Assembly: GCF_036014195.1 (NCBI RefSeq)
Contig: NZ_CP107918.1
Location: forward strand, 4,340,001 to 4,404,000
Reading direction: 5' to 3'
From: Streptomyces sp. NBC_00442
GTDB taxonomy: Bacteria; Actinomycetota; Actinomycetes; Streptomycetales; Streptomycetaceae
DNA: 64,000 nt
Below, one piece after another: positions 7,364 to 58,256 of this stretch; position 1 is the stretch's first letter, and the number at the start of each line of letters is the position of its first letter. Under the pieces are notes generated by a model. The model had not been told where the DNA came from, did not search any database, and saw nothing but the letters and a program-made list of their open reading frames with translations. The position numbers were made by a program, and so were the translations under genes.

Positions 7364-7378
7364 CTGACGGTACGTCAG
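7364..7378. promoter_or_regulatory. Operator copy 1, CTGACGGTACGTCAG
   Basis: Perfect 6+3+6 palindrome of the recurring CTGACGnnnCGTCAG element. It lies between the divergent DoxX-DUF35 operon (start 7176) and the flavin monooxygenase (start 7489), so one site could serve both. Confidence 0.75.
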
Positions 7379-7488
7379 TTCAGCGGATCCGGGGGCCGTG
7401 CGCAAGGGGCGGGGGCGTGATCAGATCGCAATCCATTCCGGGCTTGACCGAGACCCATCAAGTATTCACAGCGTTACGCTCAGCGTTC

Positions 7489-8631
7489 ATGGTCGACACC
7501 ACCCACCCCGCGAGCCCCGTCTATGTGATCGGCGCCGGGCCCGGCGGTCTCGCCGTCGCCGCCTCGCTGCGAGCGCGGGGCGTGCGGGCCGTCGTGCTGG
7601 AGAAGTCCGACGCCGTGGCGGCGTCCTGGCGGCGCCACTACGACCGGCTGCACCTGCACACCACGCGCCGGCTCTCCTCGCTGCCCGGCCTGCGGATGCC
7701 GCGCCGGTTCGGACGCTGGGTCGCTCGTGACGACGTCGTGCGCTACCTGGAGAAGTACGCCGCCGTCCACGACCTGGAGATCGTCACCGGGGTCGAGGTC
7801 GAGCGCATCGAGCGCGGCCCGGGGGGCGAGGGGTGGGTGCTGCACGCGACCGGGGGGCGGCGGCTGGTCACGCCGGCCGTGGTGGTGGCCACCGGGTACA
7901 ACCACACGCCGTATGTTCCCGACTGGCCCGGAGCGCGGACGTTCACCGGCGAGATGGTGCACGCGAGCCTCTACCGCAATCCCGGGTCGTACGTGGGCCG
8001 GGACGTCCTCGTCGTGGGGGCCGGCAACACCGGGGCGGAGATCGCGGCCGACCTCGCGGGGGGCGGGGCGGCGCGGGTGCGGCTCGCGGTGCGGACCGCG
8101 CCGCACATCGTGCGCCGCTCCACGGCGGGGTGGCCCAGCCAGGCCACCGGCATTCTGGTGCGCCGGCTCCCGGTACGCCTGGTGGACCGGTGTGCGGCGC
8201 TGATCGAACGGCTCTCCGTGCCCGACCTCTCCGCCTACGGTCTGCCACGGCCGGCCCGTGGGTTGTACGCGCGGGTGCGCGAGGGGGCGATTCCCGTGCA
8301 GGACGTGGGCCTGATCGAGGCGGTCCGCGCCGGGCGGGTCGAACCGGTCGCGGCGGTCGACTCCTTCGACGACGGCAAGGTCGTCCTCGCGGACGGGACG
8401 CGACTTTCGCCGGACGCGGTGATCTGCGCGACGGGGTACCGGCGGGGGCTTGAGCCGCTGGCCGGGCACCTCGGGGTGCTCGACGAGCGGGGGCGGCCTC
8501 GGGTGCGGGGGGCTCGTACGGTGCCGGGGGCGGCGGGGCTGTACTTCACGGGGTTCACGAATCCGATCAGCGGGATGCTGCGGGAGCTCCGCATCGATGC
8601 GGAGCGCATCGCGAAAGCCTTGTCCCGCTGA
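7489..8631 (+). CDS. Flavin-containing monooxygenase (CzcO/YUCCA type)
   Basis: FAD- and NADPH-dependent monooxygenase of 380 aa. The FAD Rossmann loop GAGPGGL is at residues ~14-20, the NADPH loop VGAGNTGAE near residue 175, and ATGYNHTPYVPDW in the linker. FTGEMVHASLY resembles the Baeyer-Villiger fingerprint FxGxxxHxxxW but has Tyr in place of Trp, so N-, C- or Baeyer-Villiger oxygenation are all possible. ATG at 7489 starts immediately before the first β-strand; longer in-frame ORFs cross the repeat array. The operator at 7364 places it in the dispersed catabolic regulon. Spacing from operator to start is 110 bp, longer than at the other sites. Confidence 0.9.
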   Translation: MVDTTHPASPVYVIGAGPGGLAVAASLRARGVRAVVLEKSDAVAASWRRHYDRLHLHTTRRLSSLPGLRMPRRFGRWVARDDVVRYLEKYAAVHDLEIVTGVEVERIERGPGGEGWVLHATGGRRLVTPAVVVATGYNHTPYVPDWPGARTFTGEMVHASLYRNPGSYVGRDVLVVGAGNTGAEIAADLAGGGAARVRLAVRTAPHIVRRSTAGWPSQATGILVRRLPVRLVDRCAALIERLSVPDLSAYGLPRPARGLYARVREGAIPVQDVGLIEAVRAGRVEPVAAVDSFDDGKVVLADGTRLSPDAVICATGYRRGLEPLAGHLGVLDERGRPRVRGARTVPGAAGLYFTGFTNPISGMLRELRIDAERIAKALSR

Positions 8632-8770
8632 GTCCGGCACCGCCCGGCCGGCGGGTACGCCCTGCGGCCGGGGCGCGCGCCCTCGTCCACGGGCCGTGGA
8701 CAGCCGGGCGCGCAGTTCCCCGCGTCCCTCGAAGGGTCGTCTTCAGGGTGCGGGCCGTGGAGGGTTGCCC

Positions 8771-9128
8771 GCGCAGTTCCCCGCGCCCCTAACCCCGCTT
8801 TCGTCCGCGGACCGTGCCCGCTTCTCGCGCAGTTCCCCGCGCCCCTAACCCCGCCTTCGTCCGCGGACCGTGCCCGCGTCCCGCGCAGTTCCCCGCGCTC
8901 CTAACCCCGCTTTCGTCCGCGGACCGTGCCCGCTTCCCGCGCAGTTCCCCGCGCCCCTAACCCCGCCTTCGTCCGCGGACCGTGCCCGCGTCCCGCGCAG
9001 TTCCCCGCGCCCCTAACCCCGCCTTCGTCCGCGGACCGTGCCCGCGTCCCGCGCAGTTCCCCGCGCTCCTAACCCCGCTTTCGTCCGCGGACCGTGCCCG
9101 CTTCTCGCGCAGTTCCCCGCGCCCCTGT
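8771..9128. repeat. 56-bp tandem repeat array of GC-rich dispersed element
   Basis: Six full 56-bp units (8771-9106) plus a partial seventh. Each starts GCGCAGTTCCCCGCG, then a CCTAACCCCGC segment and a TCCGCGGACCGTGCCCGC segment. Units differ at a few fixed places (gctttc/gccttc; cttctc/cgtccc), so they form subtypes rather than a single recent expansion. The 800-bp gap 8632-9432 holds two further degenerate copies (8707-8770), this array, a GC-rich stretch with no gene (9129-9338) and two operator copies. The same element, inverted, recurs at 41000-41350. Confidence 0.95.
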
Positions 9129-9338: not shown

Positions 9339-9353
9339 CTGACTGACCGTCAG
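9339..9353. promoter_or_regulatory. Operator copy 2, CTGACTGACCGTCAG
   Basis: One mismatch in the left arm of CTGACGnnnCGTCAG. It is the first of two sites, 24 bp apart centre to centre, upstream of the acyl-CoA synthetase gene; such spacing would put both dimers on nearly the same DNA face. Confidence 0.65.
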
Positions 9354-9362: not shown

Positions 9363-9377
9363 CTGACTGTACGTCAG
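9363..9377. promoter_or_regulatory. Operator copy 3, CTGACTGTACGTCAG
   Basis: One mismatch in the left arm. The preceding bases make TAATCT (9359-9364), a possible -10 box overlapped by the operator; the same TAATCT-operator overlap is seen at 26092. It lies 55 bp before the synthetase start. Confidence 0.7.
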
Positions 9378-9432: not shown

Positions 9433-11658
9433 ATGCTTGGATCGACTCACGGCACCCTCACGACCGACTTCCGCGCACGGGTGGTCGCCTGCGGCGAACA
9501 GCCCGGCCCCGGCGCCGTCCACGGCAGAGCGGCGGGCGAGGGCGACCTGGACGTCAGCGGCCGCCCGCTGTACGCCGACGTACCGGACCTGGACCGGTTC
9601 TTCCGGCCCGAGTCCGTCGCCGTCATCGGTGCCTCCGATGCCGAGGGACGCCCCAACACCGGCATCACCCGCCAGCTCGTCGACTGGGCCCAGCGGGTCG
9701 GCGCCCGCGTCCACCCCGTCCACCCGACCCGCACCACCGTCTTCGGACTGCCCTGCGTGCCCGCCGTTTCCGACCTGCCGGAACAGGTCGATCTCGCCGT
9801 GCTCCTGGTCGGTGACCCCCTCCCCGTCATCGAGGAACTCGCCGAAGCCAAGGTGAAGTTCGCCGTCGCCTTCGCGTCCGGGTTCGCCGAGACCGGCGAG
9901 CGGGGAGCCGCCGCCCAGGAACGGCTCGCCGCGGCCGTCAAGCGGTCCGGGCTCCGGCTGCTCGGGCCCAACACCAACCTCAACGCCTTCGAGCGCTTCC
10001 GGGACGACCTCGACGGGCCGGCCATCGCCCTCATCACCCAGTCCGGGCACCAGGGCCGGCCCGTTTTCACCCTCCAGGAGCTGGGTGTGCGGCTCTCGCA
10101 CTGGGCGCCCACCGGCAACGAGGCCGACCTCGAAACCTCCGACTTCATCTCCTACTTCGCCGAACGCCCCGAGGTCGGCGCCATCGCCTGTTACGTGGAA
10201 GGGCTCAAGGACGGGCGGGCCTTTCTGCTGGCCGCCGACCGCGCGGCCCGCGCCGGCGTACCCGTGGTGGCCGTGAAGGTCGGCCGCACCGAGGCCGGCG
10301 CGCGCATGGCCGCCTCACACACCGGCAAGCTGACCGGCGCCGACGACGTCGTGGACGCCGCCATGCGTCAGTACGGCGTCATCCGCGTGGACGGCCTCGA
10401 TCAACTCCAGGACACCGCGACCCTGTTGGCAAGGGCCCGCAGGCCGAGTGCCGACGGCGTCGTCGTCTATTCGATCTCCGGTGGCACCGGGGCGCACTTC
10501 TCCGACCTCGCCAGCGCCGCCGGGCTCCACCTGCCGGCCCTCTCCGCCGCCAAACAGGCCGAACTCCACGAGTGGATACCGCCCTACCTCAGCGTCGCCA
10601 ACCCCGTCGACAACGGCGGGCACCCCGTCGGCGACTGGCGCGGCCGGAAAATCATCGACGCGATCCTCGCCGACCCGTCCGTGGGGGTGCTGATCTGCCC
10701 CATCACCGGACCTTTCCCGCCCATGAGCGACAAGCTGGCGCAGGACCTGGTGGACGCGGCGGAACAGACGGACAAGCTGGTGTGCGTGGTGTGGGGCTCG
10801 CCGCTCGGCACCGAGGCCGCCTACCGGGAGACGCTGCTCGGCTCGGACCGGGTCGCCACGTTCCGCACCTTCGCCAACTGCATCGGCGCCGTGCGGGCCC
10901 ACCTCGCCCACCACCGGTTCACCACCGGATACCGCTCCCCGTTCGACGAGGCGCCCCGCGTGCCCTCCCCCTCGTTCCGCAAGGCGCAGGCCCTGATGCG
11001 CCCGGGTCAGCAGCTCAGCGAGCACGCGGCGAAGCAGCTGCTTCGGGCGTACGGGATCCGGGTGCCGCGCGAGCAGCTCGTGACCAGCGCGGCTGCGGCC
11101 GTGCGCGCGGCGGGGCTCGTGGGCTACCCCGTCGTCATGAAGGCCTCGGGCGCCCGCCTCGCCCACAAGAGCGAACTCGGTCTGGTCAAGGTCGGGTTGA
11201 CCTCGGCCAGCCAGATCCGCGACGCCTATCGCGAGCTGACCGACATCGCCCGGTACGAGGGGGTCGACCTGGACGGCATCCTGGTCTGCCAGATGGTCGA
11301 GCGGGGCGTCGAGATGGTCGTCGGCGTCACGCACGACTCGCTGTTCGGGCCCACCGTGACCGTCGGGCTCGGCGGCGTCCTCGTGGAGGTGCTCGGCGAC
11401 TCGGCCGTGCGGGTGCCGCCGTTCGGCGAGGACCAGGCGCGGGACATGCTCGACGAGCTGCGGGGGCGGGCGCTCCTCGACGGCGTACGCGGCGGGCCCC
11501 CGCTGGACGTGGACGCGCTCGTCGAGGTCGTCCTGCGCGTCCAGCGCATGGCCCTCGAACTGGGCGACGAGCTCGCCGAGCTGGACATCAACCCGCTGAT
11601 GGTGCTCCCGCGCGGGCAGGGCGCCGTCGCGCTCGACGCCCTCGCCATCTGCCGCTGA
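9433..11658 (+). CDS. NDP-forming acyl-CoA synthetase, single-chain
   Basis: Acyl-CoA synthetase (acetate-CoA ligase family, NDP-forming) of 741 aa: acid + CoA + ATP gives acyl-CoA + ADP + phosphate. Domain order is a CoA-binding Rossmann domain (SVAVIGASDAEGRPNTGI, near residue 60), two succinyl-CoA-ligase-like domains with the phosphohistidine loop ASHTGKLTG (near residue 300), and a C-terminal ATP-grasp domain (YPVVMKASGARLAHKSELG, near residue 565). ATG at 9433 is chosen over ATG at 9400; neither has a strong Shine-Dalgarno, so this is uncertain. Two operator copies lie upstream and an enoyl-CoA hydratase follows, suggesting it activates an acid intermediate of the regulated pathway. The acid is unknown. 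Confidence 0.88.
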   Translation: MLGSTHGTLTTDFRARVVACGEQPGPGAVHGRAAGEGDLDVSGRPLYADVPDLDRFFRPESVAVIGASDAEGRPNTGITRQLVDWAQRVGARVHPVHPTRTTVFGLPCVPAVSDLPEQVDLAVLLVGDPLPVIEELAEAKVKFAVAFASGFAETGERGAAAQERLAAAVKRSGLRLLGPNTNLNAFERFRDDLDGPAIALITQSGHQGRPVFTLQELGVRLSHWAPTGNEADLETSDFISYFAERPEVGAIACYVEGLKDGRAFLLAADRAARAGVPVVAVKVGRTEAGARMAASHTGKLTGADDVVDAAMRQYGVIRVDGLDQLQDTATLLARARRPSADGVVVYSISGGTGAHFSDLASAAGLHLPALSAAKQAELHEWIPPYLSVANPVDNGGHPVGDWRGRKIIDAILADPSVGVLICPITGPFPPMSDKLAQDLVDAAEQTDKLVCVVWGSPLGTEAAYRETLLGSDRVATFRTFANCIGAVRAHLAHHRFTTGYRSPFDEAPRVPSPSFRKAQALMRPGQQLSEHAAKQLLRAYGIRVPREQLVTSAAAAVRAAGLVGYPVVMKASGARLAHKSELGLVKVGLTSASQIRDAYRELTDIARYEGVDLDGILVCQMVERGVEMVVGVTHDSLFGPTVTVGLGGVLVEVLGDSAVRVPPFGEDQARDMLDELRGRALLDGVRGGPPLDVDALVEVVLRVQRMALELGDELAELDINPLMVLPRGQGAVALDALAICR

Positions 11659-11780: not shown

Positions 11781-12581
11781 ATGGACCCCCTGCACTCATT
11801 GGTACTGCACGCCACTGACAACGGCGTCTCGTGGATCACGCTCAACCGCCCCGATGCCATGAACGCCGTCACCTGGGACCAGCGCGAACGGGTCATCTCG
11901 CTGCTCGGCGCGGCCTCCGCCGACCCTGCCGTACGGGCCGTCGTGATCACTGCCACCGGCAAGGGGTTCTGCGCGGGGGCCGACCTGCGCGGGGCTCCCT
12001 CGACCGGGGGTGAACGGGTCGCGGGGGACGTAGCGCGCACCATCCGCCAGGGCGCCCAACGTCTGATCGGCGCCGTACTGGACTGCGAGAAACCGGTGAT
12101 CGCGGCGGTCAACGGCACCGCCGCCGGCCTCGGCGCCCACCTCGCGCTCGCCTGCGACCTGGTCCTCGCCGCCGAATCGGCCCGGTTCATCGAGGTGTTC
12201 GTACGCCGGGGCCTGGTCCCGGACGGCGGCGGGGCCTATCTGCTGCCGCGCCTCGTGGGACCCCAGCGCGCGAAGGAACTCATGTTCTTCGGGGACGCGC
12301 TCGGGGCGGCCGACGCCGAGCGCATGGGCCTGGTCAACCGTGTGGTCGCGGATGCCGCGCTCCCCGCCATGGCCAAGGAATGGGCCGAGCGGCTCGCCGC
12401 CGGGCCGACCCGCGCCATCGCCCTCACCAAGCAGCTGGTGAACGCCTCCCTGGACACCGACCGCGCCGCCGCGTTCGCGGCCGAGGCCTGGGCCCAGGAG
12501 ATCAACATGACCACGCGGGACGCCAACGAGGGTGTGGCGGGCTTCGTGGAACGACGCACGCCCAAGTACCGCGGTTTGTAG
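11781..12581 (+). CDS. Enoyl-CoA hydratase/isomerase family protein
   Basis: Crotonase-fold protein of 266 aa. Oxyanion-hole segments are GKGFCAGADLRG and NGTAAGLGAHLALACDLV; the active-site helix is RRGLVPDGGGAYLLPRLVG, with Asp where classical hydratases often carry the second Glu. It probably hydrates or isomerises an enoyl-CoA. ATG at 11781 gives the usual N-terminus for the family. It follows the acyl-CoA synthetase by 122 bp on the same strand without a visible terminator or operator, so it is probably co-transcribed with it. Confidence 0.9.
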   Translation: MDPLHSLVLHATDNGVSWITLNRPDAMNAVTWDQRERVISLLGAASADPAVRAVVITATGKGFCAGADLRGAPSTGGERVAGDVARTIRQGAQRLIGAVLDCEKPVIAAVNGTAAGLGAHLALACDLVLAAESARFIEVFVRRGLVPDGGGAYLLPRLVGPQRAKELMFFGDALGAADAERMGLVNRVVADAALPAMAKEWAERLAAGPTRAIALTKQLVNASLDTDRAAAFAAEAWAQEINMTTRDANEGVAGFVERRTPKYRGL

Positions 12582-12682: not shown

Positions 12683-12697
12683 CTGACGCATCGTCAG
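12683..12697. promoter_or_regulatory. Operator copy 4, CTGACGCATCGTCAG
   Basis: Perfect 6+3+6 palindrome ending only 5 bp before the ATG at 12703. The transcript of the flavin reductase must therefore be leaderless or start inside the site, unless a later start (12712-12730) is used. Confidence 0.75.
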
Positions 12698-12702: not shown

Positions 12703-13323
12703 ATGGGTGACGTGATGGGACACGCAGGGATGGCGGCCACCGTCGTCCGATACCTCAGGTCCGTCGGCGCCGCCACGGTCGCCGAGCCCGTCGAGTTCTT
12801 GCCCCGGCCGGATCTTCGGGCCGTCCGGGACGACGAACGGGCGCCCCTCGATCCCGCGCTGTTCCGGCGCGTGCTCGGGCAGTTCGCCAGTGGGGTCACC
12901 GTCATCACCGCCGAGGACCCGGGCGGGCCGACCGGCTTCGCCTGCCAGTCCTTCGCCTCGCTCTCCCTCGACCCGCCCCTGGTCGCCTTCATGGTCGCCC
13001 GCACCTCGACGACCTGGCCGCGCATCGCGCAGGCCGGGGTGTTCTGCGTGAACATCCTGGGGGCCGAACAGGGCTCACTGTGCAGGGGGTTCGCGGTCAG
13101 TGGGGCCGACAAGTTCGCCGGGGTCGCTCATCGTCCCGCGCCGGCGACGGGGTCGCCACTGCTCGACGGGGTGGCCGCGTGGGTCGACTGCCGTGTCCAC
13201 GCGGTGCACACGGGTGGGGATCACCTCATTGTGGTGGGGCGGGTCGAGGGGCTGGGGGAGGGCGGGGAGGGGGTTGGTCCTCTGCTCTTCCACCGGGGGC
13301 GGTTCGGGCAGTTCACCACCTGA
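12703..13323 (+). CDS. Flavin reductase family protein (HsaB-like)
   Basis: NAD(P)H:flavin oxidoreductase of 206 aa that would supply reduced FMN/FAD to a partner oxygenase. The core begins LFRRVLGQFASGVTVITAE (near residue 52), followed by GFACQSFASLSLDPPLV, the flavin-binding signature shared with HsaB and related reductases. The first ~45 residues are an extra N-terminal segment. ATG at 12703 is the most upstream start after the operator, but GTG 12712, ATG 12715 or ATG 12730 would also fit. A two-component oxygenase partner is not obvious in the window. Confidence 0.85.
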   Translation: MGDVMGHAGMAATVVRYLRSVGAATVAEPVEFLPRPDLRAVRDDERAPLDPALFRRVLGQFASGVTVITAEDPGGPTGFACQSFASLSLDPPLVAFMVARTSTTWPRIAQAGVFCVNILGAEQGSLCRGFAVSGADKFAGVAHRPAPATGSPLLDGVAAWVDCRVHAVHTGGDHLIVVGRVEGLGEGGEGVGPLLFHRGRFGQFTT

Positions 13324-13413: not shown

Positions 13414-14598
13414 CTACCCGCGGCCCAGGACGACCGTTCCGGAGGAGCAGAACCAACCCCCCGTCCCCGAGGCCACCGCCACCTCGGGAAGGCTGCCGTC
13501 GGCCCGACGGACCTGCCCCGCCCCGCTCTCCCCGCGCAGCTGCCGCACCGCCTCCACCAGGAGGAACAGCCCCCGCATCCCGGGATGACAGGCGGAGAGC
13601 CCGCCGCCGTCGGTGTTGACGGGCAGGCTCCCGCCCCGCAGCAGCCGCCCCTTCTCGACGAACGCCCCGCCCTCCCCCTTCGCGCAGAACCCCAGGTCCT
13701 CCAGCGTCACCAGGGTCATATAGGTGAACGCGTCGTAGATCTCGGCCAGGTCCACGTCGCCGGGCCGCACCCCCGCCCGCTCGAAGGCGATCCGGCCCGA
13801 CTCCGCCGCCGGGGACACCGTGAAGTCCTGCCACTGCGACATCGCCGTGTGGGAGACCGACGTGCCCGAACCCAGCACCCATACCGGCGATTTGACGGTG
13901 TCCGGCACGTACTCCTCGGCCGCGAGCAGTACCGCGCAGCCGCCGTCGGAGCGTATGCAGCAGTGCAGCTTGGTGAAGGGGTCCGCGATCATCGGCCCGG
14001 ACAGCACTTCGTCGACGGTGATCGGGTCGCTGAACATCGCGTCCGGGTTGGTGGCCGCGTTCGCCCGCGCCTGCACGGCCACCTCGGCCAACTGCTCGAT
14101 CGTCGTGCCGAATTGGTGCATGTGGCGTCGCGCGGCCATCGCGTACTTGGCGATCAGCGTGTGGCCGTACGGCGCCTCGAACTGGAGCGGCCCCCGGCTG
14201 CCGAAGGAGAGGTTCGAGGTGCGCCGCCCCGCCTTGATGTCGGCGCGCGCGGTCGACCCGTACACCAGGAGGACGGCGCGCGCGTGCCCGGCGGCGATCG
14301 CTTCGGCGGCGTGCGCGGCCATGACCTCCCAGGTGGCGCCTCCGACGGAGGTGGAGTCGACCCAGGTGGGCCGGAGCCCGAGGTACTCGGCGACCTCCAC
14401 CGGCGCGAGCGTGCCGAGCCCGGCCGAGCCGAACCCGTCGATGACGCCGCGGTCGAGCCCGGAGTCGGCGAGCGCGCGCCGGGCGGCCTGGGCGTGCAGG
14501 GCGTAGGGGGTGAGGTCGTCCACGCGTCCGGTGTCGGACAGTGCGACGCCGACGACAGCGACCTTGCGGGGGCGATGTGCTGAGGGCGAGGAGGACAT
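13414..14598 (-). CDS. Ltp-type thiolase-fold protein (lipid-transfer/SCP-x family)
   Basis: Thiolase-fold protein of 394 aa. GGGLSACHPGMRG near the C-terminus is the SCP-x/Ltp signature. The loop where degradative thiolases carry the nucleophilic Cys reads STSVGGAT with no Cys, as in Ltp2-type aldolases, which cleave by a retro-aldol reaction together with a DUF35 protein. I infer an aldolase-like or non-classical role. It is monocistronic and no DUF35 gene adjoins it; the DUF35 protein at 6281-6727 is a candidate partner. ATG at 14598 lies 4 bp from the operator at 14603-14617, so its message is probably leaderless. Confidence 0.88.
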   Translation of the reverse strand: MSSSPSAHRPRKVAVVGVALSDTGRVDDLTPYALHAQAARRALADSGLDRGVIDGFGSAGLGTLAPVEVAEYLGLRPTWVDSTSVGGATWEVMAAHAAEAIAAGHARAVLLVYGSTARADIKAGRRTSNLSFGSRGPLQFEAPYGHTLIAKYAMAARRHMHQFGTTIEQLAEVAVQARANAATNPDAMFSDPITVDEVLSGPMIADPFTKLHCCIRSDGGCAVLLAAEEYVPDTVKSPVWVLGSGTSVSHTAMSQWQDFTVSPAAESGRIAFERAGVRPGDVDLAEIYDAFTYMTLVTLEDLGFCAKGEGGAFVEKGRLLRGGSLPVNTDGGGLSACHPGMRGLFLLVEAVRQLRGESGAGQVRRADGSLPEVAVASGTGGWFCSSGTVVLGRG

Positions 14599-14602
14599 GA
14601 AT

Positions 14603-14617
14603 CTGACGGTACATCAG
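14603..14617. promoter_or_regulatory. Operator copy 5, CTGACGGTACATCAG
   Basis: One mismatch in the right arm. It directly abuts the start of the thiolase gene on the minus strand (4 bp). Confidence 0.65.
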
Positions 14618-14687
14618 ATACGGGGCCGGCAGGAGGCGTCGAACAACTCCGTGCGCGGGCTGTGCATCTGTCGGCTCCGCGCCTAAC

Positions 14688-14702
14688 ATGACGCCCCGTC
14701 AG
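14688..14702. promoter_or_regulatory. Operator copy 6, ATGACGCCCCGTCAG
   Basis: One mismatch in the left arm. It lies 35 bp before the acyl-CoA dehydrogenase start. TAACAT (14684-14689) overlaps its left end and could be the -10 box. Together with copy 5 it controls a divergent pair with one site per gene. Confidence 0.65.
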
Positions 14703-14737
14703 TTCAGAGGCACGGCCTCTGGGGGAGGAGCCCGCCG

Positions 14738-15925
14738 ATGGACGCCACCTTCACCGCGGAACAGGACGAGATCCGCCGCACCCTGCACGAACTGCTCGCC
14801 AAGCACTGCCGCCCACAGGACGTGAAGAGCGCGGTCCGCACGCCGCTCGGGCACGACGCCGCGCTCTGGGGCCGGCTCTCCGCCGAGCTCGGACTCGCGG
14901 GCCTCGCGCTGCCCGAGGCGTACGGGGGAGTCGGCTGCACCCCGGTCGAACTCGCCCTGGCCTGCGAGGAGGTGGGCCGCGCCCTGCTGCCCTCGCCGCT
15001 GCTCGCGACGGCCGTGCTCGCGGCCCCGCTCATCGCCGCCCTCGGTACCGAGGCCCAGAAGGCCGAGCTGCTTCCGCCCCTGGCCCGCGGTGAGCGGAGC
15101 GCCACCCTGGTGGTGCCCGGCACCGGCCTCGCGCTCGCGCTCGGGCTCACCGGAACGGGCGAGGACGGCGCGTGGGCCGGCGGCGGCCGGGCCGGAGGCG
15201 TGCAGGCCGGGCATGCGCCGGACGGCGGATGGCGGCTGTACGGGGAGGCCGCGCAGGTGCTCGACGGGCACAGCGCCCACCTGCTCCTGGTCGCCGCGCA
15301 CACCGGCGGGTTCGCTCGCAGCCGCACCCTCCTCTTCGCCGTACGCGGCGATGCGGCGGGCCTGCGCCGCACCCGGCAGACCACCCTCGACGAGACCCGC
15401 ACGCAGGCGCGGGTCCAACTGCGCGATGTCGAAGGACAGTTGCTCGGGCCCGACGACTCCACCGATCCGCACGCCGCGCTCGCCGCCGTAGGCCGCAGCG
15501 CCGCGGCCTGTCTGGCCGCCGAGGCGGTCGGGGCGGCGAGCGAGGCGCTGGAGCGGACGGTGGCGTACGTGAAGGAGCGCGAGCAGTTCGGGCGGGCCAT
15601 CGGATCCTTCCAGGCGGTCAAGCACCGGCTCGCCGACCTGTACGTCCAGGTGCAGGCGGCACGGTCGGCGGCGTACTACGCGGCCTGGGACCCCGGCGCG
15701 GGCGCCCTCGCGCTCGCCCAGGGGCTCGACGCGCTGCGGTCAGCCGCCTCCGAGGCGGTCCAGCTGCACGGCGGCATCGGCTTCACGTGGGAACACGAGG
15801 CGCACCTCTACTTCAAGCGGGCCGCCGCCGACGAACTGCTCTTCGGGCCCGTGCACCGGCTGCGCGGACACGCCGCGGAGCAGGCCGGTCTGTTCGGCCC
15901 CGCCGCGCACGAGGTGACGGCGTGA
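14738..15925 (+). CDS. Acyl-CoA dehydrogenase (FadE type)
   Basis: Flavin-dependent acyl-CoA dehydrogenase of 395 aa. N-terminal helical domain with LAGLALPEAYGGVGCTPVEL, C-terminal domain with REQFGRAIGSFQAVKHRLAD and the signature LHGGIGFTWEHEAHLYFKRA. The last is typical of the FadE subunits of actinobacterial steroid and cholesterol-type pathways, which often work as heterotetramers. No second FadE gene is nearby, so a homomeric enzyme or a partner elsewhere is possible. ATG at 14738 is preceded by GGGGGAGG at good spacing. The following gene overlaps its stop (GTGA). Confidence 0.92.
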   Translation: MDATFTAEQDEIRRTLHELLAKHCRPQDVKSAVRTPLGHDAALWGRLSAELGLAGLALPEAYGGVGCTPVELALACEEVGRALLPSPLLATAVLAAPLIAALGTEAQKAELLPPLARGERSATLVVPGTGLALALGLTGTGEDGAWAGGGRAGGVQAGHAPDGGWRLYGEAAQVLDGHSAHLLLVAAHTGGFARSRTLLFAVRGDAAGLRRTRQTTLDETRTQARVQLRDVEGQLLGPDDSTDPHAALAAVGRSAAACLAAEAVGAASEALERTVAYVKEREQFGRAIGSFQAVKHRLADLYVQVQAARSAAYYAAWDPGAGALALAQGLDALRSAASEAVQLHGGIGFTWEHEAHLYFKRAAADELLFGPVHRLRGHAAEQAGLFGPAAHEVTA

Positions 15926-16446
15926 AGCCCGGGGCCGCCAAGGCCGCGCCGGGGGTGCGGCTCATGCGGAGGGTGTCCTCGACACGGGCGTTCGCCAGGG
16001 TCGCCCCGCACGTCGTGCCCGCGATGGACCGGGCCGTCCACCGCCTCACCCGGGGCAAGGTCTTGCTCAGCGCGCAGATGCTGCCCGGCGTCGTCCTGAC
16101 CGCGCGCGGCGCCAAGTCCGGTCTGGCGCGCAGCACTCCGCTGGCCTGCATGCCGCTTGAGGAGAGCGGGGCGTGGGTGCTCATCGGGTCCAACTTCGGC
16201 CGGCCCGGCCACCCGGCGTGGACCGCGAACCTGCTCGCCCATCCGGATGCCGAGATCAGCTGGAAGGGCCGGGACATCGCGGTGCGGGCCCGGCTGCTCG
16301 AAGGGGCGGAGCGTGCCGCGGCCTGGCGGGCCGCGCTCGACTTCTGGCCGCCGTACGCCACGTATCAGTCCAGGATCGAGCGCGAGATCCGGCTCTTCCG
16401 CCTGGAGCCGAGAGCCGACGGGCCCAGGGCTCAAGGGGCGCCCTGA
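15922..16446 (+). CDS. Deazaflavin (F420)-dependent nitroreductase family protein
   Basis: Protein of 174 aa of the Ddn-like split-barrel family that uses F420H2. The segment VVLTARGAKSGLARSTPL and WVLIGSNFGRPGHPAWTANL are the characteristic core. GTG at 15922 overlaps the stop of the acyl-CoA dehydrogenase gene (GTGA), so the two are coupled and probably work on related intermediates. F420 use fits with fbiC and the LLM oxidoreductases elsewhere in the window. The physiological substrate is unknown. Confidence 0.85.
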   Translation: MKPGAAKAAPGVRLMRRVSSTRAFARVAPHVVPAMDRAVHRLTRGKVLLSAQMLPGVVLTARGAKSGLARSTPLACMPLEESGAWVLIGSNFGRPGHPAWTANLLAHPDAEISWKGRDIAVRARLLEGAERAAAWRAALDFWPPYATYQSRIEREIRLFRLEPRADGPRAQGAP

Positions 16447-16592: not shown

Positions 16593-17240
16593 CTATTTCG
16601 TCGGCTTCTTGCCCGTGATGCCCAGGTGGACCAAGAGCGCCAGGTTCGGCCGGAGTTCGGCCTGCTTGACGCCCCAGGTCTGGAAGCCCTTCTGGTGCGA
16701 GGCCACCGACGCGAGCATCGCCACGAGGGAGCCGGCCATCGCCGCGGGGCTGACGTCCTTGTCGACCTTGCCCTTGGTCTGGAGGTCGGTGACCGCGTCC
16801 GTAAGGGAGTTGGTGACCGAGTTCAGGATCTTCATGCGGATCTTGTAGAAGCGTTTGTCGCCCTCGGCCGCGCCCAGGTCGACGACCCGCAGGATCGCGT
16901 CGTTCTTGCGCCAGAAGTCGAGGAAGCCCTCCACGAGTTCCTCGGCCGTCTGCCAGCCCGCCCGGCCGACCCAGGAGCGGCCCTCGACCAGAGCGGTCAA
17001 CCCGGCGCCCTCCTTGGCCATTTCCTCCGCGATCTCCAGGACGGCGCCCTCGACGTCGGGGAAGTACTGGTAGAAGGTCGCGGGTGAAGTGCCCGCCTTC
17101 CGGGCCACATCGATGACTTTTACGTCCCGGTACGGCGACGAGCTGAGCATTTCACTGAGGCAGTCGAGCAGCTTCTGCCGTGTCGCCTGGCCGCGTCGGC
17201 CGGCCACGCGGCCGTCGACGGTGCGTACTTGTCCTGTCAT
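16593..17240 (-). CDS. TetR-family transcriptional regulator
   Basis: Repressor-type protein of 215 aa. The N-terminal helix-turn-helix (RQKLLDCLSEML, then VIDVARKAGTSPATFYQYF, residues ~20-65) is followed by an all-helical ligand domain (WRKNDAILRVVDLGAAEGD, FYKIRMKILNSVTNSL). It is divergent from the VOC gene beside afsK, the position of a TetR gene in the S. coelicolor afs locus as I recall it. It is the only TetR gene in the window and so the local candidate for binding CTGACGnnnCGTCAG. Its own start is preceded by a half-site: on its strand CTGACGGCATGACAG (17248 down to 17234) has a perfect left arm and a degenerate right arm. There is no clear Shine-Dalgarno. Confidence 0.92.
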   Translation of the reverse strand: MTGQVRTVDGRVAGRRGQATRQKLLDCLSEMLSSSPYRDVKVIDVARKAGTSPATFYQYFPDVEGAVLEIAEEMAKEGAGLTALVEGRSWVGRAGWQTAEELVEGFLDFWRKNDAILRVVDLGAAEGDKRFYKIRMKILNSVTNSLTDAVTDLQTKGKVDKDVSPAAMAGSLVAMLASVASHQKGFQTWGVKQAELRPNLALLVHLGITGKKPTK

Positions 17241-24460: not shown

Positions 24461-24888
24461 GGGCGCTCCAGGAGCCAGCGCGGCACGCTCACCCCGTCGA
24501 CCTCGGTGAACGTGACCTGGACGCGGGCGCCGATCCGCAGCCGGGACGGGTCGACGGAGTCGAGCGGCGCGTCCGGCTCGGCGACCACGTTGCCGACCAG
24601 GCGGATCAGGGGGTCCTCGGCGAGTTCGACGACGACCGCGTTGTAGGGAGCCATCGCCGCGTAGTCGGGGAGCAGCGGGGGGTGCGGGAAGACGTACGAC
24701 CAGATGCGGGCGCGGCCCGACACCCGGCGCCACTCGCTGTCGAAGGACTGGCAGTGCGGGCAGCAGGGGCGGGGCGGGAAGCGGAGCCGGCCGCAGTCGG
24801 GGGCTGCGCAGGCCTGGACGCGGAGCTCGCCGCGGGCCGCGTACTCCCAGAAGGGGGCGCCGTCGTCGTCCACCACGGGTGTCAGCAT
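24457..24888 (-). CDS. OB-fold/DUF35 protein, thiolase partner subunit
   Basis: Protein of 143 aa with a zinc ribbon (Cys in CAAPDC and CCPHC) and an OB fold. It starts 3 bp after the thiolase stop and overlaps the hydratase start (ATGA), so the three are made together. Adjacent DUF35 and Ltp-type thiolase genes encode a stable complex in steroid side-chain catabolism (Ltp2-DUF35 aldolase); by analogy this DUF35 protein probably completes the acyl-CoA pocket of the thiolase at 24892-26040. Confidence 0.88.
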   Translation of the reverse strand: MLTPVVDDDGAPFWEYAARGELRVQACAAPDCGRLRFPPRPCCPHCQSFDSEWRRVSGRARIWSYVFPHPPLLPDYAAMAPYNAVVVELAEDPLIRLVGNVVAEPDAPLDSVDPSRLRIGARVQVTFTEVDGVSVPRWLLERP

Positions 24889-24891
24889 CTC

Positions 24892-46891: not shown

Positions 46892-47160
46892 GAGCTGAAC
46901 TCCCAGCGAATCGAGAGGGGTGGATCGAGAGGGGGTGGAACGAGAGGGGGGGATCGAGAGGAGCAGGAGGAGAGGGCGCCCGCAGACTGCCGGGTGCCTG
47001 CCCACTGTCGTACCCGCGGGTGAACGGGGGGAGTCGGTGAGTTGAGGGGGCGTGTCCGATTCACGCGGCGCGCGGAGGCGACCGCCGGGCGTCCCTTGCG
47101 GGCTCGCGGCGCTGGGGATAGGAAGTGATCCCCACCCCGGACCGACCGGAAGGTATGCCG

Positions 47161-47991
47161 ATGCGCATCGCCGTCACCATCTTCCTCACCGACCAGACGA
47201 TCACCCCCGTACGGCTGGCGCGCGAGCTGGAGGAGCGCGGGTTCTCCGGGCTCTACCTGCCCGAGCACACCCACATCCCGGTCGAGCGGGCCACGCCCTA
47301 CCCGGCGGGCGGCGAGCTGCCGGAGGAGTACGGGCGCACCCTCGACCCGTTCGTGGCGCTCGGCCAGGCCTCGGCCGTCACCGAGCGCCTGCACCTCGGC
47401 ACCGGGATCACGCTGGTCGCCCAGCACGATCCGATCGACCTCGCCAAGCAGATCGCGACGCTCGACCACCTGTCCGGCGGGCGCTTCACGCTCGGGCTCG
47501 GCTTCGGCTGGAACAAGGAGGAGGCGGCGGATCACGGCGTCGAGTGGACGACCCGGCGCGACCTCGTGCGGGACCGGATGGCGCTCATGCGCGCCCTGTG
47601 GGCCGCTGAACCGACCGCCCACGACGGCGTGTTCGGGTCGGTCAGGGCCTCGCACGCCCACCCCAAGCCGCACCGGAACGGCGCGCCGCGCACCCTGGTC
47701 GGCGGGGCGGCGGGGCCGAAGCTGTTCGCGGGCATCGCGGAGTACGCGGACGGCTGGCTGCCCATCGGCGGGCGCGGCCTGAGCGAGTCGCTGCCCGTGC
47801 TGCGCCAGGTGTGGGCGGACGCCGGGCGCGCGGAGGGCGACCTCCAGGTCGTCCCGTACGCGGTCCTGCCGGAGACGGGCAAGTTGGCGCACTACGCGGA
47901 CCTCGGCATCGAGGAGGTCGTGCTCCAGCTGCCGTCCGCCGACGACACCTCGGTGCTCAAGGTGCTCGACGAGTACGCCCGGTACCTGTAG
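47161..47991 (+). CDS. LLM-class F420-dependent oxidoreductase
   Basis: Luciferase-fold enzyme of 276 aa, probably F420-dependent (TIGR03619-like N-terminus IAVTIFLTDQTITPVRLARE; GLYLPEHTHIPVER; LDHLSGGRFTLGLGFGWNKEE). Substrate unknown. ATG at 47161 is chosen over 47155 because GGAAGG is 7 nt from it and only 1-2 nt from the other. It has its own promoter region (46892-47160, no other feature) without a CTGACG operator. Confidence 0.86.
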   Translation: MRIAVTIFLTDQTITPVRLARELEERGFSGLYLPEHTHIPVERATPYPAGGELPEEYGRTLDPFVALGQASAVTERLHLGTGITLVAQHDPIDLAKQIATLDHLSGGRFTLGLGFGWNKEEAADHGVEWTTRRDLVRDRMALMRALWAAEPTAHDGVFGSVRASHAHPKPHRNGAPRTLVGGAAGPKLFAGIAEYADGWLPIGGRGLSESLPVLRQVWADAGRAEGDLQVVPYAVLPETGKLAHYADLGIEEVVLQLPSADDTSVLKVLDEYARYL

Positions 47992-48054: not shown

Positions 48055-49755
48055 TCAGCTCAGCGGGATCTCCAGATACGACGGGTCCTCGTCGGGCGAG
48101 GTGACGGTGATCGTGCCGGGTGTCTCGTCGGCGGGGCCGCCGTAGAACGGGTCCACCGAGTCGAGGACCAGCATCAGGCGGTGGCCGGCCTTCACGTCGT
48201 ACCCGGTGACCTGGAGCGCGAGGTCGACGGCGGTGGGCGTGTCCGCGGCGCCGAGCAGCGTGTACGGCGCGTGCGTGATGATGCGGGCGATCCCGAGGGC
48301 GTTGACGTCGAAGAGGTACGCCACGAACAGCGCGTCCGCGGTGTCGGCGGCGACCGTCACCCGCAGCCGCGGCACGCCGCGCAGCTGGTGCCGCGAGGGC
48401 AGGGGGGCGCTGGTCCACACGCCGGCCGCGCTCCGGTCGATCTTCCCGGTCCGGTACGCCTTGGGCAGGCCGGCCAGTTCGGCGTACCCGGTGACCAGGA
48501 TCTGGTCGGCGACGGTGGCCGGGGTGTCGGTGCCGGTGGTGAACGTGGTGTGCAGGCCGTCGGCGGGCTTGTCCAGGAGACCGCCGTCCCTGGCGCCGTC
48601 GGCGGGGCCGGTCAGATAGAACCGCTCGGGGGTGCCGGTGGCCGCGTGCCAGGTCGGCCGGGACTCCAGGGCCCGGCCCCACATGACCTCGCTGACCACC
48701 TGGTCCTCGGCGCCGGACTCCTCGTCGAAGGCCGCGGCCGCGGCCTCGTCCCCGTTCTCGCCCCCGCCCACTTCGAGGAGGTGGCGGTCGAACCAGCGGT
48801 GGGCGTCCTGCCAGATCCGGTTGGGCAGGCCCAGGATTCCGGTCATCTCGGGGCCCGAGTGGTCGCCGATCGACCAGAGCAGCCGCTTGGGGCCGCTCAG
48901 CGCGTTGAACATCTTCAGCGTCTGGTTGCCCGGGAACAGCGTCTCGTGCCAGGCCTGCGCGAAGAGCACCGGAACCTGACGGTCATTCAGTTTCTCGGCG
49001 CGGTGGTACGGCGAACGCGACGCGGCCCACCGCAGTGTCTCCTCGACGTTCTCGTTCGCCAGGACGTCGTCGAACGCCTTCTGGGTGCGCGCGCTGAGCC
49101 GGGCCGTGGCCGCGGCGCCGAGCAGGGTCCGCACGGCCGCCACGTGCCGGGTGTTGTTCTCGTAGAACGCCTCGCCCAGGTCGCCCCAGGTGCTGAGCGC
49201 GACCACCGCGTGCACCCGCGGGTCCTCCGCGGCGACGAGCTGACTGATGCCCGAACCGTAGGAGTCGCCGAGGAAGCCGACCCTGCCGATGGCGCCGGGG
49301 CCGCCCGCCTCGGAGACGAGGTGGTCGAGCGCCTTGATGCCGTCGGCGATGTCCGCCTCGCCCGCCACCTCGACCTCGCCGCCGGACTCGCCGAAGCCCC
49401 GTGCGGTATAGGCCAGTACGTGATAGCCGCGGCGCGCGAAACGCATGGCCTGCACGGCGTAGACGGTCCAGCCCTGCTTGGCCCACGGCGAGGGCATCAC
49501 GATCAGCGGGTGCGGCCCTTCGCCGTTGTGCAGCCATAACGCGGCGTCCAGCTCCACACCCTCGCCGACCGGCACCCTCACCCCGTCCCGGAACGTCGCC
49601 GCCTCGCGTGCCGCGTCGACCTCGGCCGCCCGCGCGGGGGCGAGCGCGGAGGTGTCACCCGTGCGCAGCGCCTGGACGACCTGCGCGAGCACCCCTTCGT
49701 CCAGCTCCGGGTAGAGGCTCACCACGGCGTTCGGTCGCGTTTCCTTTGAAGTCAC
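48055..49755 (-). CDS. CocE/NonD-family serine hydrolase
   Basis: α/β-hydrolase of 566 aa with a C-terminal jelly-roll domain (X-Pro dipeptidyl-peptidase/CocE type). Catalytic Ser-165 in [11 protein letters not shown]; a candidate His in SIGDHSGPE; the C-terminal ~200 residues (after PERFYLTGP) form the β-sandwich. It cleaves esters or acyl-peptides of unknown nature. GTG at 49755 starts the family N-terminus; the same frame stays open to 52626 opposite fbiC, which is a shadow. Confidence 0.88.
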
Positions 49756-49977: not shown

Positions 49978-52602
49978 ATGACTCCCAGCGCACAGTCCCC
50001 GCAGGCAGAAGGACCGGACCCGGCCCAGCGGCGGTCCGGGGCGCCGACCGCCAACTCGATGCGGCGCGCGCTGAAACGCGCCAGGGACGGTGTGGCGCTC
50101 GACGTCGCCGAGGCGGCCGTGCTGCTCCAGGCCCGCGGCGCCGACCTCGACGACCTCACCGCCTCCGCCGCCCGGGTCCGCGACGCGGGCCTCGAAGCGG
50201 CCGGCCGGCCGGGCGTCATCACGTACTCCAAGAGCGTCTTCATCCCGCTCACCCGGCTGTGCCGGGACACCTGCCACTACTGCACCTTCGTCACCGTGCC
50301 CGGCAAGCTGCGCCGGGCCGGCCACGGGATGTTCATGTCGCCCGACGAGGTGCTCGACATCGCCCGCCGCGGGGCCGAACTCGGCTGCAAGGAAGCCCTG
50401 ATCACCCTCGGCGACAAGCCCGAGGACCGCTGGCCCGAGGCCCGCGCATGGCTCGACGCGCACGGCTACGACGACACGATCGCCTACGTACGCGCCATGT
50501 CCGTCCGCATCCTGGAGGAGACGGGCCTGCTCCCGCACCTCAACCCCGGGGTCCTGTCGTGGACCGACTTCCAGCGGCTCAAGCCCGTCGCGCCCTCCAT
50601 GGGCATGATGCTGGAGACCACCGCGACCCGCCTGTGGTCCGAGCCCGGCGGCCCCCACTTCGGCTCCCCGGACAAGGAACCGGCCGTGCGGCTGCGGGTG
50701 TTGGAGGACGCGGGCCGCTCGTCCGTGCCGTTCACCAGCGGGCTGCTCATCGGCATCGGCGAGACGTACGAGGAGCGCGCCGACTCGCTGTTCGCGCTGC
50801 GCCGCGTGGCGCGCGCCTACCACGGCATCCAGGAGCTGATCATCCAGAACTTCCGCGCCAAGCCGGACACGGCGATGCGCGGCATGCCCGACGCCGACCT
50901 CGACGACCTGGTGGCGACGGTCGCCGTCGCCCGGCACATCATGGGCCCCGCCGCCTGCCTCCAGGCGCCGCCCAACCTGGTGGCGGGGGAGTACGGGCGC
51001 CTGATCGGCGCGGGCATCGACGACTGGGGCGGGGTCTCGCCGGTCACCATCGACCACGTCAACCCCGAGCGCCCCTGGCCGCGCATCGAGGAACTGGCGG
51101 AGAAGTCCGGCGCCGCAGGCTTCTCGCTGCGCGAACGCCTGTGCATCTACCCGGAGTTCGTCCAGCGCGGCGAGCCGTGGCTCGACCCCCGGCTGCTGCC
51201 GCACGTACGCGCGCTCGCCGACGCGGAGACCGGCCTCGCCGACGAGGGCGCCGCGGTGCGCGGGCTGCCCTGGCAGGAACCCGACGAGGGCTTCACCAGC
51301 AGCGGCCGCACCGATCTGCACCACACCATCGACACCGAGGGCCGCACCGGCGACCGCCGCGAGGACTTCGACTCCGTGTACGGCGACTGGGCGGCGCTGC
51401 GCGAGGCGGCGGCCCCGGGCATGGTGCCCTCGCGCATCGACGCCGACGTACGTCAGGCCCTTTCGGCCGCCGCCGACGACCCGACGAAGCTGAGCGACGA
51501 CGAGGCGCTCGCGCTGCTGCACGCGGACGGCGAGGCGCTGGACGCGCTGTGCCGGATCGCGGACGACGTCCGCAAGTCCGTGACGGGCGACGACGTGACG
51601 TACATCGTCACGCGCAACATCAACTTCACCAACGTCTGCTACACCGGCTGCCGCTTCTGTGCCTTCGCGCAGCGCCGCACGGACGCGGACGCGTACACCC
51701 TGTCCCTGTCCCAGGTGGCGGACCGGGCCGAACAGGCCTGGGAGGTCGGGGCGGTCGAGGTGTGCATGCAGGGCGGCATCCACCCCGACCTGCCGGGCAC
51801 GGCCTACTTCGACATCGCGCGGGCCGTGAAGGAGCGGGTGCCGGGGATGCACGTCCACGCGTTCTCGCCGATGGAGGTGGTGAACGGCGCGACCCGCACC
51901 GGGATGTCCGTCCGCGAGTGGCTGACCGAGGCGAAGGCATCCGGTCTGGACTCGATCCCGGGCACGGCGGCGGAGATCCTCGACGACGAGGTCCGCTGGA
52001 TCCTCACCAAGGGCAAGCTGCCCACCGCCACGTGGATCGAGGTGGTGAAGACCGCCCATGAGCTGGGCATCCGCTCCTCCTCCACGATGATGTACGGGCA
52101 TGTCGACCAGCCCCGCCACTGGCTGGGGCACTTGCGCACCCTCGCCCGCATCCAGCAGGAGACCGGCGGCTTCACGGAGTTCGTCACGCTGCCCTTCATC
52201 CACACCAACGCGCCGGTGTATCTGGCCGGCATCGCACGGCCCGGCCCCACGGCCCGCGACAACAGGGCCGTCACGGCGATGGCCCGCCTCCTCCTCCACC
52301 CCCACATCCCCAACATCCAGACCAGCTGGGTGAAGCTGGGACAGGAGGGCGCGGCGGAGATGCTGCGCTCGGGCGCCAACGACCTGGGCGGGACGTTGAT
52401 GGAGGAGACCATCTCCCGTATGGCGGGCTCCAGCTACGGCTCGTACCGCTCCATCAAGGACCTGGAGGCCATCGCGGAGGCGGCGGGCCGGCCGTCCCGG
52501 GCACGCACGACGCTGTACGGCGAGGTGCCGGCCGAGCGGGTCTCGGCGGCCCGCACCTCCGACGGCCACCTTCCGGACCTCCTCCCGGTCCTGGACGCCT
52601 AG
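49978..52602 (+). CDS. fbiC: FbiC, bifunctional FO synthase (CofG-CofH fusion)
   Basis: Radical-SAM enzyme of 874 aa that makes 7,8-didemethyl-8-hydroxy-5-deazariboflavin, the chromophore of coenzyme F420. The N-terminal CofG half has the [4Fe-4S] Cys triad C95, C99, C102 (CRDTCHYC) and the C-terminal CofH half C554, C558, C561 (CYTGCRFC). Fusion of the two is normal in actinobacteria. ATG at 49978 is preceded by GAAGG with almost no spacing, so a short leader is likely. It supplies the cofactor for the F420-type enzymes in the window. Confidence 0.97.
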
Positions 52603-55434: not shown

Positions 55435-55436
55435 GG

Positions 55437-57038: not shown

Positions 57039-57429
57039 GTGCCCCCTCCCAGGGGTCCGCCTGTGCACGTCGCTGTACGACGCCTGTGAACTCGGATGCT
57101 CTTCGTCGGCACGTCCGGCTCAGCGGTACCCCGTGCGGGAGTGGGGACTTCGGGGATTGAACCCTTTGGCGGAGGGGGTGGTCAAGACATCTGATGGTCA
57201 TGGATATGAACGTCGATCAGAAAGTCGAACGAATTTGCCTTCGCTTTGCCTTTGGGAGTGTTGTCGTACGCGCGGCGGGAGCCACACGATGGGCGGGCGC
57301 TTCGTCGGCTCCGCCCACCAGGGCGTGTACGTACAGAAACGGACGACCGCACGGGATGCGGGTCCCGTGCGGTCGCGGTGGAAATGCTCAACCGGCCTGC
57401 TCTTGTGCGGAGTTGGGGGTTAGGGCGGA
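57039..57429. other. 391-bp gap upstream of symporter gene
   Basis: No gene seen; short ORFs here do not look coding. It contains the SDR terminator (57345-57374) and an AT-richer stretch (about 57180-57260) that probably carries the symporter promoter on the minus strand. I cannot assign an operator. Confidence 0.5.
57345..57374 (-). terminator. Hairpin terminator of the SDR gene
   Basis: Perfect 12-bp stem GACCGCACGGGA/TCCCGTGCGGTC with a 6-nt loop, 56 bp past the SDR stop on the minus strand. Confidence 0.8.
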
Positions 57430-58212
57430 TCACCTCATCAGTTCACCGGCGTTCACCAGGAGGGACTGGCCGGTGATCGCGCGGGCCCGGTCGGAGGCCA
57501 GGAAGACCACGGCGTCCGCCACGTCGCCGTCCGTGGCCAGCTCCGGCAGTGCCATCCGCTCCGTGAGGCGCCCGAGCACCTCTTCCTCGGGCACGCCCTC
57601 GGTGTGCGCGGTGAACTGCACGTACGCCTGCACCGGCGGCCCCCACATCCAGCCCGGCAGGACCGTGTTGACCCGGATCCGGTCGGGCCCGAGCTCCCTC
57701 GCCATCGAGTACATCGCGGAGGTGAGCGCGCCCTTGGACGCCGCGTACGCCGCCTGCCACACCTGGGAGGGCGCGGCCACCGACGACTGCGTACCGATGA
57801 CGACGACCGAGCCTCCGCCCGCCTTGAGCGCCGGCAGGCAGGCCCGGGTCATGCGCAGGGTGCCGAGCAGGTTCACGTCGATGACCTGCTGCCAGGTGGC
57901 GAAGTCCGCGTCCTGGAGGCCGCCGAAGTAACTGTCCCAGGCCGCCACGTGCACGACCGCGTCGATGCCGCCGAACCGCTCCAGGGCGAGCGCGGCCAGC
58001 GCCTCGCACTGCGCCTCGTCGGTGATGTCCGTCGCCAGGTGGGCGGTGCGGGCGCCGTCCGGGTCGATCTCGGTGGCGGACTTCGCGAGGTTGGCCGCGG
58101 TGCGCGCGCCGAGCACCGCGTTGCCGCCGTCGCGCACGACGGCCGCGGCGACCTGGTGCCCGAGCCCGGCCCCGACCCCGGAGACGATGACGGTCTTCCC
58201 ACTCAGCAACAT
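57430..58212 (-). CDS. SDR-family oxidoreductase
   Basis: Short-chain dehydrogenase of 260 aa. SGVGAGLGHQV replaces the usual TGxxxGxG, LGART at the cofactor-discriminating place, VVHVAAWDSYF instead of NNAG, catalytic IGTQSSVAAPSQVWQAAYAASK (split here as Ser and YAASK), and C-terminal ITGQSLLVNAGE. These departures suggest an unusual substrate. ATG at 58212 follows GGGAGG. The operator 58242-58256 is 29 bp upstream. Confidence 0.88.
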   Translation of the reverse strand: MLLSGKTVIVSGVGAGLGHQVAAAVVRDGGNAVLGARTAANLAKSATEIDPDGARTAHLATDITDEAQCEALAALALERFGGIDAVVHVAAWDSYFGGLQDADFATWQQVIDVNLLGTLRMTRACLPALKAGGGSVVVIGTQSSVAAPSQVWQAAYAASKGALTSAMYSMARELGPDRIRVNTVLPGWMWGPPVQAYVQFTAHTEGVPEEEVLGRLTERMALPELATDGDVADAVVFLASDRARAITGQSLLVNAGELMR

Positions 58213-58241
58213 CCGGTGGCCTCCCGGCTCTGGCACATTTT

Positions 58242-58256
58242 CTGACGGAGCGTCAG
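58242..58256. promoter_or_regulatory. Operator copy 13, CTGACGGAGCGTCAG
   Basis: Perfect palindrome in the 82-bp divergent gap between the SDR gene (start 58212) and the EthD-like gene (start 58295). It is the outermost copy, 18.7 kb from the nearest other one. Confidence 0.75.

Follow-up and report, generated by a model that had tools for sequence, protein, structure and literature searches.

The TetR-family repressors KstR and KstR2 control cholesterol catabolism in mycolic-acid actinobacteria, acting on many genes for acyl-CoA and steroid-ring enzymes from operators of the AAC..GTT type (KstR) or of the form AnCAAGnnCTTGnT (KstR2). EthR of Mycobacterium tuberculosis is a local regulator of a monooxygenase, and TetR repressors typically have sites at their own promoters. 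Here we describe a palindrome with the consensus AnCTGACGnnnCGTCAGnT that occurs 13 times in a stretch of 64,000 nucleotides of the Streptomyces sp. NBC_00442 chromosome (the window; contig NZ_CP107918.1, positions 4,340,001 to 4,404,000), together with a gene for a TetR-family regulator (16593-17240, minus strand). The gene types overlap with those of KstR and KstR2 (FadD3-, IpdE2-, HsaB-, ChsH2- and FadA5-like), whereas the consensus appears unlike their operators. From sequence comparisons we consider it highly probable that AnCTGACGnnnCGTCAGnT is the operator of this TetR protein, a putative repressor that would govern catabolic genes in the cluster and at roughly ten further loci, as well as itself.

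Other actinobacterial repressors offer partial parallels. BkaR of mycobacteria, an autoregulatory TetR repressor of the branched-chain keto-acid type, is like the candidate in having palindromic operators at CoA-metabolism promoters and unlike it in the operator core, GTTA(N)T(N4)A(N)TAAC; PMC3920632 gives a regulon of 10 genes in M. smegmatis and predicts at least 12 for M. tuberculosis. The Rv0767c-type TetR with its 'motif X' (PMC6593523) and SRTF1 (PMC7807495) are proposed for sterol-induced operons, and are likened to the present protein as TetR regulators outside KstR and KstR2, that is by regulator type and not by operator letters. Neither the motif nor the regulon was found in the open-licence literature, among the matches listed and in titles and abstract starts; a paper behind a subscription may exist. 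In the open-licence literature searched, six neighbouring SCO numbers were unmentioned, and SCO4421 (below) was named in one paper, PMC3878966.

Palindromic sites and their conservation

The sequence-only reading of the window had reported 13 intergenic palindromes, six with perfect arms and seven with one mismatch, and all of them were found again where it had placed them (Table 1). Every centre is non-coding, with a called gene starting no more than 250 bp downstream, a placement with a chance of 9e-11 (intergenic fraction of the window, 0.169); gene borders are those of a simple gene caller, with starts uncertain by tens of bases. As judged from the sequence, the 13 palindromes are very probably operators. 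When the 4096 possible six-base arms are ranked at a gap of 3, CTGACG comes first in the window both in upstream copies (13, the next best arm having 3) and in perfect copies (6, the next best having 2), and the same arm with other gaps (0-8) gives 0-1 copy. The excess is confined to the class of 0-1 mismatch, since the window total at up to three mismatches is 51 against a shuffled mean of 70.3. Three additional sites precede the window by 2.6 to 8.2 kb (genome 4331774, 4331852 and 4337379), the genes that follow them being an acyl-CoA ligase, an amidohydrolase/acyl-CoA dehydrogenase run and a cyclase/SDR pair. The extent of 51 kb first proposed therefore holds for the 13 window sites, and the cluster reaches farther, to 16 sites over about 67 kb.

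The sites were footprinted by sequence comparison at 80 Streptomyces loci that surround the TetR gene (same-genus genomes being taken as Streptomyces). Upstream of genes lay 262 of the 270 sites, with 4 inside genes and 4 elsewhere, and the symmetric consensus was AnCTGACGnnnCGTCAGnT, with A at -2 and T at +2 in 84% and an invariant TGA..TCA, an invariance favoured by the preselection of sites at one mismatch or less. The gap holding 14603 and 14688 contributed 105 sites in 59 loci, and the gene pair around 26096 contributed 70 sites in 51 loci. All 20 same-genus orthologues of the amidohydrolase, the window's own among them, keep perfect arms at the site corresponding to 32110, whereas its three central bases vary; paralogue loci of the amidohydrolase carried 1-2 sites at 8/8 examined, and the amidohydrolase had no match in 5 of the 25 genus genomes searched. 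An imperfect site overlies the TetR start codon, and the same 15-mer was present there in 72 of the 80 loci, the other 8 having centre variants; since the site overlaps coding sequence, its conservation may partly reflect protein constraint.

A position weight matrix (PWM) built from these footprints was run over 144 kb around the cluster. The 16 cluster sites scored 20-33, values that are not independent because the matrix was trained on the relatives' cluster sites, and the only other matches of 9 or more were the TetR start-codon site (15.3), position 48976 (21.8) and one intragenic match (15.3). The two-mismatch matches beyond the earlier list were 17234, which is this start-codon site, 36477 (intergenic, PWM below 9), 36892 (within a called gene) and 48976-48990, which lies within a CocE/NonD hydrolase gene. 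That position makes 48976 doubtful as an additional operator.

Over the whole genome, 26 perfect copies and 146 with at most one mismatch were counted (reversed control, 1 and 26). We examined 124 of the 146, most of the others being mismatched at arm positions 2-4. The 108 copies outside the cluster comprised 45 inside open reading frames (ORFs), 21 on stop codons, 32 upstream of genes, 6 convergent and 4 others. An unfiltered genome-wide scan thus returns mostly matches that are not promoter sites. Plain counts mislead since many outside copies are intragenic or on stop codons, and we rejected them, also in view of the excess of copies in family f15 (below), as proof of a large regulon. The PWM scan outside the cluster, covering 0.92 Mb largely around motif matches, found 13 upstream matches at PWM >= 22, with 6 inside genes, 2 on stop codons and 2 both upstream and on a stop codon. 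Ten of the 13 upstream matches precede CoA or redox genes, a grouping chosen after the genes were seen; the other three are 6601200, 343818 and 2333384. Among 76 genes of unselected stretches, the families listed (25 of 99) included one AMP-binding enzyme.

If the palindrome were a chance or compositional repeat, the lack of an excess over shuffles at 3 mismatches and the 45 intragenic copies would be expected. CTGACG would not be expected to top the 4096 arms, nor would arms be kept, with the spacer changing, in 20 of 20 orthologous loci; the arm ranking and this conservation of arms but not spacer make chance untenable for the cluster sites, and we give it next to no weight. The palindromes could also work in RNA, as 3'-end hairpins or terminators, and stop codons are indeed covered by 21 of the 108 outside sites, by 39473 in the cluster and by copies in f15. 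In this family, five genomes (G051, G069, G084, G097 and G110) have the TetR gene along with 109-218 perfect copies. Within 400 kb of G051, none of the 14 perfect copies was upstream of a gene: 9 cover stop codons, 4 are intragenic and 1 lies elsewhere, and the sampled copies were not near the TetR gene. In f15 the sequence thus probably serves a different purpose, unrelated to the cluster sites, in 3'-end hairpins. For the cluster a role in RNA is very improbable, considering that 15 of its 16 sites are upstream of starts (one overlaps a stop codon), many in divergent gaps without a 3' end, that 262/270 are upstream in the Streptomyces loci and that the A/T at -2/+2 is conserved.

The TetR protein as candidate repressor

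The protein encoded at 16593-17240 has an N-terminal TetR_N helix-turn-helix and a helical C-terminal domain, as TetR-family members do. Its predicted fold is confident (predicted local distance difference test, pLDDT, 90), and the nearest solved structure is EthR (about 18% identity over the fold), also the best-scoring named TetR by sequence; DesT and FadR, which are acyl-CoA-responsive types, appear lower down the list of fold matches. Neither KstR nor KstR2 was among its PDB sequence matches at E<=0.001 (EthR, YvdT and an unnamed TetR). The protein is identical to that of a Streptomyces record (L035), and identity is at least 90% in the 80 best loci. One copy of the gene was found in each of 39 of 41 relatives (E<=1e-15), the two relatives without it having 0 and 1 perfect motif. 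Ten of 11 aligned orthologues share the segment GTSPATFYQYF unchanged; the remaining one differs by a P to S change, and the f15 TetR sequence also carries the segment. From its position beside kbpA-afsK, we take the gene to be the putative orthologue of S. coelicolor SCO4421, a TetR gene close to afsK whose expression is reported to be lower in a whiA mutant and was seen in spores and not in vegetative hyphae (PMC3878966). The likeness is the proximity to afsK; the passages seen of PMC3878966 describe neither a target nor an operator.

Outside the genus, synteny and co-occurrence connect the regulator with the motif. In G026, a genome of another family, homologues of the cluster's catabolic genes surround a TetR 65% identical, and the 80 kb there contain 9 sites. 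Among nine unassigned proteins scanned in that cluster, an ECF sigma factor was the only DNA-binding regulator. The sigma factor gene (L244:8458-8997) had no homologue matched in the window region. In stretches of families f14 and f16 that were chosen for perfect sites or TetR, 41 of 45 sites were upstream, 3 inside called ORFs and 1 elsewhere. A site was present at the TetR gene's own promoter or start in 5/5 of these genomes (G050, G052, G070, G098 and G131), the one in G098 being counted as inside owing to an overlapping ORF call, the one in G050 likewise because it falls at the called start, and the start call in G052 being truncated. The f16 amidohydrolase homologue (66-67%) has a site 29 bp before its start in 3/3 stretches.

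TetR presence was then compared with perfect motif copies in a class survey of 246 genomes. In f16, genomes with TetR have 14, 14, 13, 14 and 7 perfect copies and those without it 0, 0 and 1; in f18, genomes with a close TetR have 1, 3, 6, 4, 9 and 6 (mean 4.8) and the 13 without it a mean of 1.5 (Mann-Whitney p 0.016 and 0.005, relatedness ignored). The comparison leaves out four f18 genomes whose TetR matches are weak (1-3 copies) and also f15, because the G051 copies are mostly intragenic or on stop codons. Footprinting, the synteny in G026, the own-promoter sites and the co-occurrence in f16 and f18 thus support what had been proposed from the window alone, a TetR-type operator for a catabolic regulon with this protein as its candidate regulator.

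Several observations weigh against this assignment. Deletion of SCO4421 is reported to have shown no visible phenotype (PMC3878966). TetR's own site is imperfect in the window genome, and G026 has no site with at most one mismatch directly before TetR. Zero perfect motifs accompany a TetR match in G057 (45%) and G065 (43%), and 1-2 perfect copies accompany it in G172, G251 and G260 (3 of 24 same-genus survey genomes); genomes without TetR reach 4-5 copies (G060 4, G155 4, G171 5), and f15 combines TetR with its many copies of another kind. Outside the cluster, six matches at PWM >= 22 sit inside genes, and the good upstream matches 343818 and 2333384 precede short proteins with secreted-type N-termini. 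The G065 homologue (G065:C74:75373-75993) has one TGA in frame and is possibly decayed.

The operator might instead belong to a different transcription factor, with the TetR gene merely one of its targets. Binding by TetR is something we infer, other regulators occur in the region (for example the ECF sigma factor of the catabolic cluster in G026 and, in the window, proteins of XRE type), and G057 and G065, with a TetR and no perfect motif, fit such a factor. In f1 and G026, however, TetR is encoded amid the run of sites, and in G050, G070 and G098 it shares a contig with sites; it tracks the motif in f16 and f18, and its own-promoter sites recall those of repressors such as BkaR (PMC3920632). 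On balance a different factor is quite unlikely, and we retain TetR as the probable binding protein.

For the repressor we infer DNA binding and, with falling strength, repression rather than activation, an acyl-CoA inducer and a steroid-like substrate. A repressor dimer would sit on one or two palindrome copies, about 30-130 bp ahead of the start codon, and would block transcription of genes for acyl-CoA ligases, acyl-CoA dehydrogenases, hydratases, Ltp/ChsH2-type thiolases, F420- and flavin-dependent oxidoreductases and the amidohydrolase. Its control would reach the cluster and about ten further loci and would include its own gene, and an acyl-CoA pathway intermediate would probably release it.

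Predicted target genes and substrate

Gene assignments are from hidden Markov model scans, and the cut-offs in Table 1 refer to these.

Table 1. Predicted operators, the TetR regulator and candidate target genes (window coordinates; sites outside the cluster in genome coordinates)
Feature	Position	Strand	Remarks
Operator, perfect arms	7364-7378		between 6724-7176(-)/6281-6727(-) and 7489-8631(+)
Operator, 1 mismatch, first of pair 24 bp apart	9339-9353		before ADP-forming acyl-CoA ligase-like gene 9433-11658
Operator, 1 mismatch, second of 9339/9363 pair	9363-9377		
Operator, perfect arms	12683-12697		before HsaB-like flavin reductase gene 12730-13323
Operator, 1 mismatch	14603-14617		between thiolase 13414-14523(-) and IpdE2-like acyl-CoA dehydrogenase 14738-15925(+)
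Operator, 1 mismatch, second in 14523-14738 gap	14688-14702		
Operator, 1 mismatch	26096-26110		between Ltp-type thiolase 24892-26040(-) and FadD3-family ligase 26132-27712(+)
Operator, perfect arms	32110-32124		before amidohydrolase gene 32146-33381(+), gap shared with afsR
Operator, 1 mismatch	37660-37674		between methyltransferase 36806-37546(-) and F420 LLM 37738-38682(+)
Operator, 1 mismatch, second in 37546-37738 gap	37700-37714		
Operator, perfect arms	39473-39487		covers stop codon of SDR ORF 38691-39476
Operator, perfect arms	39535-39549		before LLM oxidoreductase 39600-40709
Operator, perfect arms	58242-58256		between SDR 57430-58212(-) and uncharacterised 58295-59134(+)
Imperfect site over TetR start codon	17234-17248		CTGACGGCATGACAG on minus strand; candidate autoregulatory half-site
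TetR-family regulator, 215 amino acids	16593-17240	-	TetR_N + TetR_C_38; proposed repressor
ChsH2-type zinc ribbon/OB-fold protein	6281-6727	-	
Flavin-dependent monooxygenase-like (FMO-like) protein	7489-8631	+	
ADP-forming acyl-CoA synthetase-like protein	9433-11658	+	below curated cut-offs
Enoyl-CoA hydratase family protein	11781-12581	+	below curated cut-offs
Flavin reductase, HsaB-like	12730-13323	+	191.6 bits, below 230 cut-off
Thiolase-domain protein	13414-14523	-	
Acyl-CoA dehydrogenase, IpdE2-like	14738-15925	+	below cut-off
Deazaflavin-dependent nitroreductase family protein	15922-16446	+	
Operon-like run: enoyl-CoA hydratase, ChsH2-like OB protein, Ltp-type thiolase	23687-26040	-	thiolase above cut-off
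FadD3-family acyl-CoA ligase	26132-27712	+	above curated cut-off
Amidohydrolase family 2 protein	32146-33381	+	
F420-dependent LLM oxidoreductase, Rv2161c type	37738-38682	+	above cut-off
SDR oxidoreductase	38691-39476	+	
LLM-class oxidoreductase	39600-40709	+	below cut-offs
SDR oxidoreductase	57430-58212	-	
Uncharacterised protein	58295-59134	+	G026 homologue 63% identical, likewise preceded by site
Outside upstream site, PWM >= 22	388077		enoyl-CoA hydratase
Outside upstream sites, PWM >= 22	3608961 and 3804138		acyl-CoA dehydrogenases
Outside upstream site, PWM >= 22	5521588		P450 + steroid 3-ketoacyl-CoA thiolase (thiolase above cut-off)
Outside upstream site, PWM >= 22	5548422		LLM
Outside upstream site, PWM >= 22	5822413		ferredoxin reductase
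Outside upstream site, PWM >= 22	6639841		ChsH2-like with thiolase
Outside upstream site, PWM >= 22	6691166		PPOX
Outside upstream site, PWM >= 22	7037260		nitronate monooxygenase
Outside upstream site, PWM >= 22	7048837		ligase/hydratase
Outside upstream site, PWM >= 22	6601200		Rv3169-family protein

Of the chemistry first suggested for these genes, the CoA, flavin and F420 gene types stand, and 'steroid' is a matter of resemblance. The steroid direction comes from the FadD3-family ligase and, at genome 5521588, from the P450 and the FadA5-type thiolase. No match to KshA (PF19298) was found in the own genome, and 14 control genomes were likewise all below the cut-off. The gene set resembles one for a steroid or for another polycyclic or branched lipid. 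The region 5521588-5561732 of the genome carries sites before the P450, the FadA5-type steroid thiolase, an Rv3520c-type LLM, an IpdE2-like dehydrogenase and a MaoC hydratase.

Near the cluster targets, a third LLM gene (47155-47991) has no site of its own. Neither has a gene for an FbiC-like radical SAM protein (50092-52602), predicted to act in F420 precursor synthesis, near the F420-type LLM genes. Their homologues adjoin each other in G026.

Relation to the afs genes and significance

The sites are interleaved with the afs genes, as the idea of a regulon across the afs locus held; the link to afs itself is positional only, because the f16 amidohydrolase keeps its site and the G026 cluster is without a match to afsK, afsR or kbpA in its 80 kb. 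The interleaving looks like chromosomal neighbourhood. Control of afsR by 32110 was considered and is unsupported beyond the shared position. A broader picture can be drawn, in which a genus-wide, sporulation-expressed TetR runs an F420- and CoA-dependent lipid-breakdown regulon among the afs genes and the 32110 operator also tunes afsR, so that turnover of storage or membrane lipid would be tied to antibiotic control and spore formation; we regard this as unlikely.

The analysis supplies a predicted operator and target set for a TetR protein that is highly conserved in Streptomyces and for which PMC3878966 detected no mutant phenotype. It predicts an inducible catabolic pathway common to several actinobacterial families, and it makes the question of the substrate and any cross-talk with afsR directly testable.

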